A stretch of DNA of 64,000 bases from Aciduliprofundum sp. MAR08-339 (GTDB lineage Archaea > Thermoplasmatota > Thermoplasmata > Thermoplasmatales > Aciduliprofundaceae): contig NC_019942.1 in assembly GCF_000327505.1 (NCBI RefSeq), positions 496,001-560,000 of the forward strand, in the 5' to 3' direction. This document shows, in pieces, positions 22,614 to 59,425 of this stretch. The notes below the pieces were generated by a model. That model made no database searches, was not told the DNA's origin, and saw only the letters and a program-made list of their open reading frames with translations. The stretch's first letter is position 1. Every line of letters begins with the position of its first letter. The translations under genes were made by a program, and so were the position numbers.

Positions 22614-22952
22614 TTATGGGTTTCGGGATTGCTGTAGTGAGCGGACATATTCAGTAAAACTTAAAAGATTAAAGGGTTTGTAGAAAACCATAAATTGTTT
22701 GCTTTTAAAATCCGGGTCTCCGGTCATTATTATTACTTTTCCTTTCTCTTTAGCAATATTTGCAAGTTCAAGTCCATTTGCGAAAGAAATGTGATAATCT
22801 ATTATGTACACATCGTAATCATTTTTTTGGATTTTACTAAGCCCTTCTTCAAAATTATAGGCTCCATCAACGTCTTCTATCCCGACCCTTTTTAGCGAAA
22901 TTTTAATAAGTTTTACCAATTCTCTACTATCATCAACCACCAGCACTCTCAT
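22614..22952 (-). CDS. Stand-alone response-regulator receiver domain
   Basis: A 112-residue CheY-like receiver with no output domain. It has the acidic pocket DD in LVVDDSREL, the phospho-acceptor Asp in VYIIDYHI, the Thr in IIMTGDP and the Lys in FYKPF. It starts leaderlessly at ATG 22952, about 26 nt from a TATA-like TTTAAATA; the TTG at 22961 is less likely. No histidine kinase is adjacent. It diverges from the secreted-peptide gene across a 155-bp promoter region. The 154 bases after pcc1 (22460-22613) hold only a TATATGGG/CCCATATA inverted repeat near 22468-22496. Confidence 0.9.
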   Translation of the reverse strand: MRVLVVDDSRELVKLIKISLKRVGIEDVDGAYNFEEGLSKIQKNDYDVYIIDYHISFANGLELANIAKEKGKVIIMTGDPDFKSKQFMVFYKPFNLLSFTEYVRSLQQSRNP

Positions 22953-22991
22953 CGGATTCAAAATTTACTTATTTGTATTTAAAGATTGTAG

Positions 22992-23003
22992 TGAGCATGC
23001 TCA
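22992..23003. promoter_or_regulatory. Perfect 12-bp palindrome, candidate operator
   Basis: TGAGCATGCTCA is a perfect inverted repeat in the divergent region between the receiver gene and the peptide gene, with further AGTGA/TCACT symmetry around it. It lies about 40 bp upstream of the receiver start, just behind its TATA element, a position where an archaeal repressor or activator could act. No regulator can be assigned. Confidence 0.45.
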
Positions 23004-23107
23004 TTTCACTCTCACTTTGCTTTGAGTTTTTCCCATTTTGCTGTGAACATTATATAATTAGAGGATGCTCTCAAATCCTTAATATACGAACTGGCCTGAA
23101 AATTAAA

Positions 23108-23338
23108 ATGGTGAGAAAAATGAACTGGAAGATTGTGTTGGGATTGGTGATAGTGGCTGGCCTCATTGGCGTTGGAATGCTCGGCATGCATACCCAGATT
23201 CACACAAACACAACTACCGTAGGAAGTTCAGGTGGAAACCCGGCCCCCAGTGGTCCACATCCAGCAGATAACTATGCTTGGAGTATAGTGTATTCCACGT
23301 CCGAAGGTCCACATCCAGCAGATAACTATGCTTGGTAA
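23108..23338 (+). CDS. Secreted or anchored small peptide with duplicated GPHPADNYAW
   Basis: A 76-residue protein: MVRKMNWK, a hydrophobic segment (VLGLVIVAGLIGVGMLG) acting as signal peptide or anchor, a Thr/Ser/Gly linker, then the decapeptide GPHPADNYAW twice, separated by SIVYSTSE, with the second copy forming the exact C-terminus. A TATA-like TTAATATAC about 26 nt upstream supports this leaderless start. No family is recognised. The layout resembles precursors that carry repeated signal peptides. Its stop codon touches the stop of the convergent STAND/TPR regulator gene with no gap. A structural or adhesive role is possible. Confidence 0.7.
   Translation: MVRKMNWKIVLGLVIVAGLIGVGMLGMHTQIHTNTTTVGSSGGNPAPSGPHPADNYAWSIVYSTSEGPHPADNYAW
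23252..23335 (+). repeat. Two identical 30-nt direct repeats inside the peptide gene
   Basis: Bases 23252-23281 and 23306-23335 are identical, encoding GPHPADNYAW each time with the same codon at every position. The period is 54 nt (18 codons). Identity at silent sites implies a recent duplication, gene conversion, or selection on the nucleic acid itself. Confidence 0.95.
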
Positions 23339-25870
23339 TTAAAGATCTACAATGGCCACAACCTTTTTCTCTCCATTTGCGATTTTCTCATAATCCTCTA
23401 TATACGCATATCCATACTTTCTCAGGTATTTTGCAGCGTCCTTTGATATTTCTATAATTGCTCTTTTGTTTCCAATCTGGGCTGCCAAATTTATGGCCCT
23501 ATCAAAGAATTCCTTTCCTCTCTCTTTATCTCCAAGGTATGCATAGAAAACACCCAATGAATTATATGTGTAAGACAGATTCTCCAAATCATTTAATTTT
23601 TCAAAGATTTTAAGGGCCCTATCGAGATAGACCTTAACTTCAAAGAACTTCTCCTTGTACATATTCCAGTTTGCCATTGAAATGTACGAGTGGGCCAGGG
23701 TCCATTTATCTCCAATTTCTTCTGAAATTTTCATTGTTTTTCTGAAATATTTTTCTGCACGATCATCACAAAGGTTGTAGTAAACAAGCCCTATATTTTT
23801 ATTTACCTTTGCAAGACCGGGAAGATTGCCGCAGGATTCAAAGTATTCTGCCGATTTTTCAAAAAGTATTATGGCATTTTCATAATTTTTATTAAATCCC
23901 TCTATAATCCCAAGACCATTATAGGCGTATCCCAAACTTTCAGTATCAGATTCCTGCTCTGCGAATTTTACCGCCTCAAGCATGTATTCTTTTGCATCTT
24001 CAGTGTTTCCTTTTTTCATATTGATTATTCCAAGAACATAATATGCCTGTGATATGATCTTTTTATTTTCTATTTTTGTTATTTTCTTTAACACCTCTTT
24101 AATAATTTTTGAAGCCTCTGTATATTTTCCCTTTTTACCAAGAATATCTGCGATTTTCACAGATACTTTAGCGTTGAATTCAACATCTCCTTTATGGGAA
24201 AGGGATCTTGCTTTTTTGTAGTTTTCCAAAGCCTCCTCCCACATACCAGCAAAATCATATGTATCTCCAATTATACCGTAAAGTTGCCATTCCTGCTCCT
24301 TTGTGAGATCATCGTATCTGTTTAAAATATACTGGGCAAGTTTTCTTATCTCTCCTCCCCTTTTAAAGAGATATTTTTCGTAATTTTCTTCTAAGAGCAT
24401 TGTTGCTCTCATAGTTTTTCCAGCACGGGCATAATGATAAACGGCCTCGAGAACATCTTTGTCTTCGTAGTACTTTGCTGCCATAATATGATAGGCCTCT
24501 CTCTTTCTCTCTGTCAGATGCTCATATACAAAGTTTCTAATGCTTCTATGAGTTGAAAGAGTCTCATATTCCATTTCAACAAGTATATTTTTGTTTATCA
24601 GAGAATATATTGTTTGATATTCAATGTTGTTTAGGAGAAGCATACTCAGTTTGAATTTCTTTCTTAAAACGGAAATGAAACTCAAAGCTTCAGCCTCTGC
24701 CTTGTCTAAACTTTTAAGAATACCCTCAAATATAAATTTTCTTACCATTCCATAATTACCATTGCTCAATATTTTGAGTATAAGTGGATTTGCTCCATAT
24801 TTTGATAGAACCTCTAAGGCATCATCCTTGGAGAATCCCTTTTGAATGAGCATTTTTAATGCATCTCTCTCATCAATCTCTCCTAATTTTATCTCTTCTA
24901 CATACTCAAGTTTTGATATGGGTACAACATCCTCTATTTTGGTTCCACTCAATATTACTCTAAAATCTTTACTTGAATCCACCATATCTACAATTTTTCT
25001 TATAAAATTCTTTGAGTTCTCGTCACAGTTTTCAACATTATCGAATATAAAAATTTCATTTTTGAGAGATTCCCTGATCAATAGTAATATGTTGTTCCAC
25101 TCATATTTTCTGTCCTCTGAGAATGGCAATTGTTTTAGATATCGCTCCATTTTTGGAGCACCTATTTTCGATAAAAACTTTGATATTTTATGTGCTATAT
25201 TTTCCACTCCACCCCAACTCTCAATTTTTATGAATAACACATCCCTATCTTTAAGGTATTCTTTAACGAATTTTAGTAAAAGTGTGGTTTTACCAATACC
25301 TGAAATCCCGGCCATAAGGAGAATTTTCTTATTGGAATTTATCCAATTTCTCAAAATTTTTAATTCCTCCTCTCTTCCATAGAAATCTCTAAGAATTAAG
25401 TTTTCGTCAATGCTGTGATATGCGCCACCTATTTTTTTATTCAGGTATATTAAATTTAAATTTTTGTTTTTGTCAAGATTTAGGGCACACTGAATAAACG
25501 ATAGATTGTATTTATCACATGCGTCCTTTAAAATCATAGGTTCTCTCTCACCCGACGGTTTTATAACCGTTATTTTAAGTTTTTTTAAGTCCCTTTTTAT
25601 TTTATTTGATTCTTCCATACCTCTTTCTGTAAGAAAATATACTGTTCTTTTATTTCTTAGCCCATTCACATGCAATTTTTTAGATCTTACAAAACCCGAA
25701 ACCATAAGTTTTTTGATCTCCCTTGGAACGTTATTTCTACCTATGCCAATGGCCTTGGCAATACCGTCCTGTGTAACCGATTTTGGAGCGAGAATATCAT
25801 CTATATCTTTTGAATACTGAGATAAATGAAGTAATATTTTCTGCCTATTGTTGAGATACCCCCGCGTCAT
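23339..25870 (-). CDS. Winged-helix/STAND ATPase/TPR regulator
   Basis: An 843-residue MalT/AfsR-style protein. Residues 1-95 form a winged helix (VTQDGIAKAIGIGRNNVPREIKKL recognition region, then a YFLTERG wing). A linker leads to GREEEL and a STAND-type ATPase: Walker A AGISGIGKTT at 187-196, Walker B IFIFDNVEN at 273-281, GANPLIL (GxP) near 359-365. About 460-830 holds repeated TPR-like units (AYNGLGIIEGFNKNYENAIILFEKS, YTYNSLGVFYAYLGDKE). STAND proteins switch on when the repeat domain senses a ligand, so this could be a signal-gated transcription factor. Base composition is visibly more AT-rich than neighbouring metabolic genes. It lies tail to tail with the secreted-peptide gene. Confidence 0.88.
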   Translation of the reverse strand: MTRGYLNNRQKILLHLSQYSKDIDDILAPKSVTQDGIAKAIGIGRNNVPREIKKLMVSGFVRSKKLHVNGLRNKRTVYFLTERGMEESNKIKRDLKKLKITVIKPSGEREPMILKDACDKYNLSFIQCALNLDKNKNLNLIYLNKKIGGAYHSIDENLILRDFYGREEELKILRNWINSNKKILLMAGISGIGKTTLLLKFVKEYLKDRDVLFIKIESWGGVENIAHKISKFLSKIGAPKMERYLKQLPFSEDRKYEWNNILLLIRESLKNEIFIFDNVENCDENSKNFIRKIVDMVDSSKDFRVILSGTKIEDVVPISKLEYVEEIKLGEIDERDALKMLIQKGFSKDDALEVLSKYGANPLILKILSNGNYGMVRKFIFEGILKSLDKAEAEALSFISVLRKKFKLSMLLLNNIEYQTIYSLINKNILVEMEYETLSTHRSIRNFVYEHLTERKREAYHIMAAKYYEDKDVLEAVYHYARAGKTMRATMLLEENYEKYLFKRGGEIRKLAQYILNRYDDLTKEQEWQLYGIIGDTYDFAGMWEEALENYKKARSLSHKGDVEFNAKVSVKIADILGKKGKYTEASKIIKEVLKKITKIENKKIISQAYYVLGIINMKKGNTEDAKEYMLEAVKFAEQESDTESLGYAYNGLGIIEGFNKNYENAIILFEKSAEYFESCGNLPGLAKVNKNIGLVYYNLCDDRAEKYFRKTMKISEEIGDKWTLAHSYISMANWNMYKEKFFEVKVYLDRALKIFEKLNDLENLSYTYNSLGVFYAYLGDKERGKEFFDRAINLAAQIGNKRAIIEISKDAAKYLRKYGYAYIEDYEKIANGEKKVVAIVDL

Positions 25871-57847: not shown

Positions 57848-59425
57848 TCACTTGAAGTATAGCAGGTTGTAGTGGAAAATCATATCTGGACCTATGATTA
57901 TTCCACCTATGTCCTTGTCTGCTACGACGTACAGTTTACCCTGTATGAAAGGAATGTATGGTACATCTTGGGCAAGAATCTCCTGTGCTTTTATGTATAG
58001 TTTCTCTCTCTGGGTCTTGTTTGTGAGTTGCTGTGCCTCAGAAAGTATCTGGTTCATCTCGCTGTTGTTGTATCCAGTTCCGGCCCACCCGTTGGCATTG
58101 TCCACAGAGGATAGGAACGGTGTGGTGTAGTCATCAGGATCCAGATAATCCGGATACCAGCCGAACATATAAACTTCCATCTGCTTCTGTCTTGCGTACT
58201 GTAGGTAGGTTTGCCACTCTGCACTCTTTATTGTGACCTCAACCATTCCCGTAGCTTCCCACTGTTGCTTAAGAAGCTGGGCAATATCTGCCTCGGTATC
58301 TCCATAGTGGGAGGGTGTGTACCATAGATTTATTTTTAACTTATTTGTGGTGCTGTAACCCGCTTCTTCTAAAAGTTTTTTAGCTGCATTTAGATTGGGA
58401 GATGCTCCGTATTTCTCCTTAAACACGTCCTTGTGGGACCACATACCAATTGGTATAAGCGTGTAAAGTGGCTCCACTGTGTTGTGGAAGACCCTTTCTG
58501 CGATCTGCTGTCTGTCAATTGCGTAGGCAAGTGCCTGTCTTACGCGAACATCACTTGTTGGGCCCTTCACGGTGTTGAAGCATATGTACCTGATGTATGA
58601 ACTGGGTATTTCAACCACATTGTATGACCCGCTCTTCTTCAGATTCTCAATATCTGTTGGTCTTAGGGTTCTCCATGCGATGTTTATCTCCCCGTTCTGG
58701 AGAGCCAACCTCATTGTGGTTGCATCCTTGTAGAATTTAATCACTATCTTCTCAATCTTGGGCTTTGGCCCGTAATAATTGGGGTTCGCCTGCAAATCCA
58801 GTTCCTGATCCCTGACCCATTTGGTTATATAGTATGGGCCCCAACCACCGGCAGTTTGATCACTCTGAATGTGGTTCGGATCGTATGCTCTGCTTACGGG
58901 GAAGTACGGTGGATCAGTTAGCAGTGCTAGGAAATAGGCAGTTGGATGTTTGAGAGTGAATACAACAGTGTAATCGTCGGTGGCCGTTACTTTCTTCACG
59001 AAGGATGTTACGAGCCAGGCGGGATCTCCGTTTATTCTCATAACCCTCTCAATGCTCCAAACAACATCTTGGGCTTTCAGAACAGTTCCATTGTGGTTTT
59101 TCACGTCCTTCCTCAGGTGGAAGGTCCATATGGTGGCATTTGCATTAACATTCCAGCTTTGGGCCATTGCCGGGATAATGTCTGCCGTTCCTGGTTTATA
59201 GGTTACAAGACCACCCATTATATTGTTCAGCACTTCCCACGTGTAGAAGTCGTAGGCATTGGAGGTGTCAAGATCTGAGATTTTATCTGTGACACCTATG
59301 ACCAGCATCTTTTTCTGGGGGGGTGTTGGCTGGTTACTGGAAGGCTGCATGGCGTAGTACACTGCAATCCCTGCAATTATTAGAATCACTACAATTATTA
59401 TTGCTATTATTCCACCCTTTTGCAT
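57848..59425 (-). CDS. oppA: Oligopeptide-binding protein OppA
   Basis: A 525-residue extracellular solute-binding protein (family 5). An N-terminal membrane helix (about residues 4-25) anchors it; a Pro/Gln linker leads to the binding domain with VTDKISDLDTSNAYD, WTFHLRKDVKNHNG, and DVRVRQALAYAIDRQQI. No lipobox Cys is visible, so anchoring is by the helix, common in archaea. First gene of the opp operon. Confidence 0.94.
   Translation of the reverse strand: MQKGGIIAIIIVVILIIAGIAVYYAMQPSSNQPTPPQKKMLVIGVTDKISDLDTSNAYDFYTWEVLNNIMGGLVTYKPGTADIIPAMAQSWNVNANATIWTFHLRKDVKNHNGTVLKAQDVVWSIERVMRINGDPAWLVTSFVKKVTATDDYTVVFTLKHPTAYFLALLTDPPYFPVSRAYDPNHIQSDQTAGGWGPYYITKWVRDQELDLQANPNYYGPKPKIEKIVIKFYKDATTMRLALQNGEINIAWRTLRPTDIENLKKSGSYNVVEIPSSYIRYICFNTVKGPTSDVRVRQALAYAIDRQQIAERVFHNTVEPLYTLIPIGMWSHKDVFKEKYGASPNLNAAKKLLEEAGYSTTNKLKINLWYTPSHYGDTEADIAQLLKQQWEATGMVEVTIKSAEWQTYLQYARQKQMEVYMFGWYPDYLDPDDYTTPFLSSVDNANGWAGTGYNNSEMNQILSEAQQLTNKTQREKLYIKAQEILAQDVPYIPFIQGKLYVVADKDIGGIIIGPDMIFHYNLLYFK

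Follow-up and report, generated by a model that had tools for sequence, protein, structure and literature searches.

What might a small gene whose product ends in two identical decapeptides be doing beside a large regulatory ATPase in an archaeon? The question is raised by a 64,000-nucleotide stretch of Aciduliprofundum sp. MAR08-339 (assembly GCF_000327505.1, contig NC_019942.1, positions 496,001 to 560,000; hereafter the window), in which a peptide-precursor gene, a STAND-TPR regulator and a lone CheY-like receiver are packed together. The best explanation for this locus is an autoregulated, quorum-sensing-like peptide-pheromone circuit of Thermoplasmatota, to which we assign a probability of about 0.7. 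Peptide signalling had already been proposed in the initial annotation, and the proposal gained from gene linkage, selected repeats, recurrence in methanogens and a shared operator, while three family regulators without a peptide speak against it.

The precursor gene (23120..23338, + strand; read as an open reading frame (ORF), whose orthologues in 13 further genomes are laid out alike) encodes 72 residues, in which a basic N-terminus is followed by a hydrophobic segment, a linker and two copies of GPHPADNYAW (23252..23281 and 23306..23335, + strand), the second at the very C-terminus. The copies are identical in 30 of 30 bases and lie 18 residues apart, as first described, and a degenerate form of the decapeptide pattern occurs only at these two sites across the 1,437,090-bp genome. 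The initial annotation was right in recognizing a small ORF with C-terminal repeats but gave it 76 residues, which corresponds to an alternative start at 23108. Since a GGTG-type Shine-Dalgarno directly precedes M-[NK]-x-K, the second in-frame ATG, in all 14 orthologues (TGGTG at 23109..23113, + strand, in the window, with GGTG at the same position in 14/14 genomes), translation most likely starts at 23120. To judge from the N-terminus, the product is very probably exported. The ORF closes with TGG TAA at 23336-23338 and the regulator stop codon follows from 23339 on the − strand, so that the zero-gap, tail-to-tail pairing with the 843-residue regulator holds. A second own-genome match, GPHPSDQTPLLW at G000:741145, was set aside, its host ORF looking like chance.

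Is this pairing conserved? A protein search of 61 genomes turned up homologues in the genus and in the family Aciduliprofundaceae, and once the loci and the neighbours of the regulator had been read the peptide gene stood at 14 of 18 family genomes. The initial annotation had taken loss or unlinking of the peptide in relatives with the same regulator as evidence against its proposal; among the 15 loci where contigs allow assessment, 12 keep the gene convergent with and adjoining the regulator, and three (G004, G010 and G012) are without it. The C-terminal pairs vary between lineages: GPHPADNYAW, GPHPSEPGSW, GPHPTDPSNW and GPHPPGDTPW each occur twice, other pairs being GPHPTDPDIW/DAW, GPHPPIPDVW/PYPDAW, PHPPIVDDPW/PHPPIIDDPW (two genomes) and GPHPPVDADNW/GPHPPLGDMDW. 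In genus g4 the doubled motifs are DPPLDYDYA, DPPLDYDYW and GPPLDYDFV, one more gene, the fourth of the genus, being truncated by a contig end, and the G005 precursor carries four GPKxPxDxWxW-like units. Copy identity is 0.93 within a genome and 0.50 between genomes, a result reached by 0 of 20,000 permutations; differences between copies are silent in 31 of 41 differing codons (expected 23%, P about 2e-12), and in five genomes protein-identical copies differ by 1-6 bases, all silent. Because such differences are silent, copy identity is, on the codon evidence, maintained by selection even as the sequence itself diverges from lineage to lineage; this is the pattern to be expected were both copies required to match a single partner. 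A chance tandem duplication in a small functionless gene would suit the window copies, identical at silent sites too, but it is refuted by the comparative data (cross-genus conservation, silent copy differences, ribosome-binding site, operator and linkage) and its probability is negligible. It is virtually certain that the peptide-regulator locus is a real conserved module.

The partner in this module is the regulator (23339..25870, − strand; 843 residues), whose domains were assigned by Pfam, alignment, an AlphaFold2 model (mean pLDDT 86.8, pTM 0.65) and PDB entry 6MFV. An N-terminal winged helix with the recognition helix GRNNVPRE (alignment and model) is followed by a STAND NTPase (Walker A GISGIGKTT, Walker B IFIFDNVE), a helical/arm region and about 8-9 TPRs (residues ~486-818), Pfam matching an AAA/STAND-like NTPase and TPRs (TPR_12, E 6.6e-24). 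The top PDB match in both sequence and fold is 6MFV, PH0952 of Pyrococcus horikoshii (E 3.7e-36); measured against the complete 6MFV structure the model scores low (TM-scores 0.32/0.39), as a different arrangement of the domains would lead one to expect. An ArsR-like DNA-binding domain, a NOD, an arm and a TPR sensor make up PH0952, a homologue of MalT described in a doubly autoinhibited form (PMC6468293). Among the further fold matches are peptide-binding TPR proteins, for example LGN and Rap of phage phi3T with its pheromone. At high similarity the regulator is a single-copy, family-restricted gene (17 of 117 genomes of the order), the relatives recovered through it being Aciduliprofundum and DHVE2 genomes; related regulators are about 840-930 residues long. 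G008 and G016 have a second STAND-TPR protein, of 1011 residues, close to the locus (L016 3543-6578, L017 4525-7560), and a 362-residue paralogue that shares the winged helix and NTPase but has no TPRs (G000:C1:275940-277037, L047) occurs in the window genome and in other family genomes.

Does the arrangement recur outside the family? A class-wide profile search with the family peptides gave only leader-like matches there, so that recurrence was traced through the regulator instead. A profile of its N-terminal half found matches in 184 of 390 Thermoplasmatota genomes and, under a stricter cut, in 80 of 399 genomes of the class, and the neighbourhoods were scanned for short ORFs with internal repeats. 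This check for repeat-bearing ORFs beside STAND/TPR genes, suggested in the initial annotation, succeeded in Methanomassiliicoccales, where 19 of 20 assessable loci of GRNN regulators carry, convergent with the regulator and in most cases 9-82 nt from its stop codon, a short ORF (families f24, f32, f33 and f34) that consists of a hydrophobic leader and 1-12 identical octapeptides whose sequences bear no relation to GPHP...W; the twentieth, G301, has a 9-mer array and no clear leader. SIPFLDPH occurs twice in G151, G278 and G179 and once in G263, (A/S)IPFIDPH six times in G299, SIPLLDPH four times in G325 and IPMLDPH twice in G284. IIPGIDPH is present in 12, 5, 6 and 6 copies in G275, G281, G355 and G405 respectively, TIPLIDPH in six (G403), NIPGIDPI in five (G399), IIPGTDPH in seven (G337), IPG(N/D)DPH in four (G257, G303 and G389) and VIPGNSPH in five (G323). 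Changes within these arrays are silent in 259 of 263 cases, a proportion biased upward by counting matching copies alone. McrA, a marker of Methanomassiliicoccales within the class, is encoded in all 12 of the genomes tested among these. In G251, G275, G281, G301, G303, G323, G151, G179, G257 and G325 one contig carries both the locus and mcrA, some 20-45 kb apart, a conserved synteny that argues for vertical inheritance. Two loci are irregular: in G251 an IIPGTDPH array (L161 5671-6141) is split over two frames, which is a frameshift, a sequencing error or a decaying gene, and in G275 an IS110-like transposase gene (L171 1951-2946) sits between the 12-copy peptide gene and the regulator, both operators being kept. 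Twin motifs also stand beside the regulator in two further lineages, G127 (GIGMRDGPDGW) and G169 (YDLRGEQIDPD).

A small product with a predicted export signal, a lineage-specific sequence and its own regulator might also be an antimicrobial peptide (archaeocin), the repeats acting as a toxin against relatives and the regulator controlling its production. We consider this very unlikely: the neighbourhoods seen hold no conserved immunity or dedicated exporter gene, the peptides are short, Pro/Asp-rich, free of cysteines and not amphipathic, and strict copy identity is typical of ligands.

How would the regulator reach its own neighbours? In the window a perfect palindrome, TGAGCATGCTCA (22992..23003), lies 117-128 nt ahead of the peptide start and upstream of the TATA element of the receiver, and a degenerate operator-like site, GAGGATGCTC (23061..23070), for which the evidence is weaker, stands directly upstream of a candidate peptide TATA element read from the sequence, TTAATATA (23079..23086, + strand). 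The operator is present at all 14 peptide-bearing family loci, as TGAGCATGCTCA or, in G001-G003, as GAGCATACTCA, and in 12 of 14 genomes it lies 124-127 nt before the peptide start beside the receiver TATA; a weaker GAGnATnCTC site is found at -57 to -59 in most family genomes. Two AGCATGCT sites occur in 14 of 14 methanogen loci, one at the peptide promoter and one 73-109 nt before the regulator match, and the arrangement is repeated in newer loci. Among about 35 other regulator loci, one has a site in the peptide/regulator promoter zones; of the other loci scanned later, G169 (helix SRQN) has both sites and G207 and G214 one each. The GRNN recognition-helix motif is found in every regulator of the set from the two operator-bearing clades, family and methanogens, and is absent from the other regulators aligned. 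Because the helix tracks the operator-bearing clades, the regulator very probably acts at the palindrome; the tie between operator and helix and the conservation of the operator, like the module and its selected repeats, can be read from the sequences themselves. The operator stands upstream of the transcription factor B recognition element (BRE) and TATA, a position suited to activation, so that activation would be expected rather than repression. No wider regulon was seen: in 16 further family regions the sites all fall inside ORFs, the peptide locus being the one place in the family with an intergenic site among those examined, and extra TTGAGCATGCTM matches in 14 methanogen genomes are almost all coding, with one intergenic exception in G325.

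A shared operator means co-regulation, and this would fit a regulated output as well as a ligand. The precursor might then be a surface-anchored or secreted multivalent protein (for adhesion, the S-layer or partner binding) with repeats that attach to one external partner, its hydrophobic segment could be an anchor, and the STAND regulator would sense something else and turn the gene on; related regulators do adjoin non-repeated secreted or pilin-like proteins. However, several methanogen precursors are barely more than leader and octapeptides (55 residues), the single copy in G263 implies that multivalency is not needed, and the gene adjoins the TPR sensor in nearly every case, and operator sites away from the locus are almost all coding. 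We therefore regard an output role as unlikely.

The lone receiver (22614..22952, − strand) diverges from the peptide gene, as stated in the initial annotation, matches Response_reg (E 5.5e-12) and likely starts at ATG 22952 rather than at the listed TTG 22961. It is divergent from the peptide at every family locus that extends far enough, and in genus g4 and G017 the next gene encodes a PAS-domain protein, which is a histidine kinase wherever the gene is complete. One could suppose from this association that receiver and PAS kinases form the true sensor-response pair for the peptide, the STAND regulator serving expression only. At the Methanomassiliicoccales loci, however, no receiver was seen, a kinase is missing from the locus in many genomes, and the kinases listed are of PAS/GAF type with no clear extracellular peptide-binding domain, which makes this highly improbable. 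Instead, a DUF835 protein of ~185-200 residues diverges from the regulator and shares its operator in L235, L241, L247, L250, L251, L256, L258, L259 and L262, and may take part in the circuit. Since DUF835 takes the place of the receiver in Methanomassiliicoccales, the receiver is no core component.

Several observations weigh against a peptide pheromone. G004, G010 and G012, genomes 93-99% complete, lack the peptide both beside the regulator and genome-wide, and their loci yielded no operator. By region-wise identity the TPR regions are no different in conservation from the rest of the regulator, and no fast-evolving peptide-binding zone was found. A number of related regulators outside the GRNN group lie beside a single-copy, non-repeated secreted protein of 86-90 residues that we take to be TSP3/EF-hand-like (G148, G129, G139 and G123; convergent with the regulator at L174, L179, L194 and L276, with a gap of 12 at the first two), and at L184-L187 and L191 (f49/f57) a protein of ~156 residues converges, with a gap of about 0-32, with wHTH-STAND-TPR regulators; we read this protein as pilin-like and its lineage as Poseidoniales. 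It suggests a different sensed partner for those regulators, and the ancestral partner may have been an entire secreted protein, not a short peptide. Identical copies, too, could allow a surface protein that stays uncleaved to bind multivalently.

We infer, for the pheromone circuit, export, processing, re-import, binding, activation and an intercellular role, in the following order. The precursor would be exported through its N-terminal hydrophobic signal, and extracellular trimming would release a single short linear peptide in several copies (GPHPADNYAW, or part of it, in the window). The peptide would re-enter the cytoplasm, probably by an Opp-type importer, possibly one of three systems with an oligopeptide-binding (SBP_bac_5) protein in the genome, of which the one in the window (58094-59179, − strand) is a candidate. 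Inside, it would bind the TPR sensor of the neighbouring MalT/PH0952-like regulator, for which the short repeat peptide is probably the ligand, and lift autoinhibition, so that the regulator could multimerise with ATP. The winged helix at TGAGCATGCTCA would then raise transcription of the peptide gene and of its partners, the receiver in the window or the regulator and DUF835 gene in Methanomassiliicoccales, and control of the peptide gene by its own regulator would close a positive feedback loop. We incline, with somewhat less confidence, to intercellular signalling of the density type. Dozens of candidate precursor/receptor/operator triples are to hand, some of them in methanogens of an order with gut members; a candidate inducer is thereby offered for an archaeal class of STAND-TPR regulators, and synthetic versions of the short peptides could serve as tools for reading or switching gene expression in archaea.

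How does the locus relate to known systems? For RRNPP systems five criteria were published, including a receptor of 250-500 residues, a propeptide of 10-100 residues, SEC export with maturation, TPRs and adjacency (PMC10075063), and RRNPPA propeptides with up to six identical copies are known, as are receptors without a propeptide (PMC9765709; PMC10075063). The precursor falls within the propeptide range at 72 residues, some relatives being longer (118 in G005); it has a basic N-terminus and hydrophobic segment as would suit export, and the receptor has TPRs and is adjacent. As in Rap-Phr, NprR-NprX, PlcR-PapR and AimR-AimP of Firmicutes, a small, predicted exported precursor carries a C-terminal or repeated signal beside a TPR receptor that is here predicted to regulate transcription (gap 0 in the window, convergent in relatives), and repeat precursors and receptors lacking a precursor occur in both. 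The receptor, however, has 843-930 residues, and an AAA/STAND NTPase separates winged helix from TPRs, whereas RRNPPA receptors are helix-turn-helix-TPR or TPR-only proteins; the archaeal host, the convergent gene order and the palindromic operator differ as well. Because the receptor is too long and is a STAND protein, the locus is not filed as RRNPPA, although by analogy it would work like a member; the parallel drawn in the initial annotation would hold for function but not for the class of receptor, here a STAND ATPase like PH0952 and MalT.

In Firmicutes peptide communication is well established, but the initial annotation knew of no such archaeal system and the open-access literature searched yielded no report of an archaeal peptide pheromone either. 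The archaeal signals reported are small molecules, and the disk-forming signal of Haloferax volcanii resists proteinase K (PMC12240190). The present locus shares with that signal and with the carboxy-AHL (acyl homoserine lactone) of Methanosaeta harundinacea a role, here predicted, in archaeal cell-cell signalling, but those systems have no peptide gene-receptor pair. With PH0952, a STAND regulator of the MalT kind, the regulator shares the order of N-terminal DNA-binding domain, NOD (Walker A and B), arm and TPR sensor. MalT senses maltotriose, whereas the candidate inducer here is a peptide encoded next door, none being described for the class in the papers searched. The yeast alpha-factor likewise comes from an exported precursor in which several identical copies of the peptide alternate with spacers; the likeness is limited to the multi-copy precursor, the yeast receptor being a surface G protein-coupled receptor without homology. 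On balance we favour the view that this is the first archaeal peptide-pheromone system, built in Aciduliprofundaceae and Methanomassiliicoccales on STAND ATPase receptors, lineage-specific peptides (1-12 copies) and a common operator, with an origin separate from RRNPPA.

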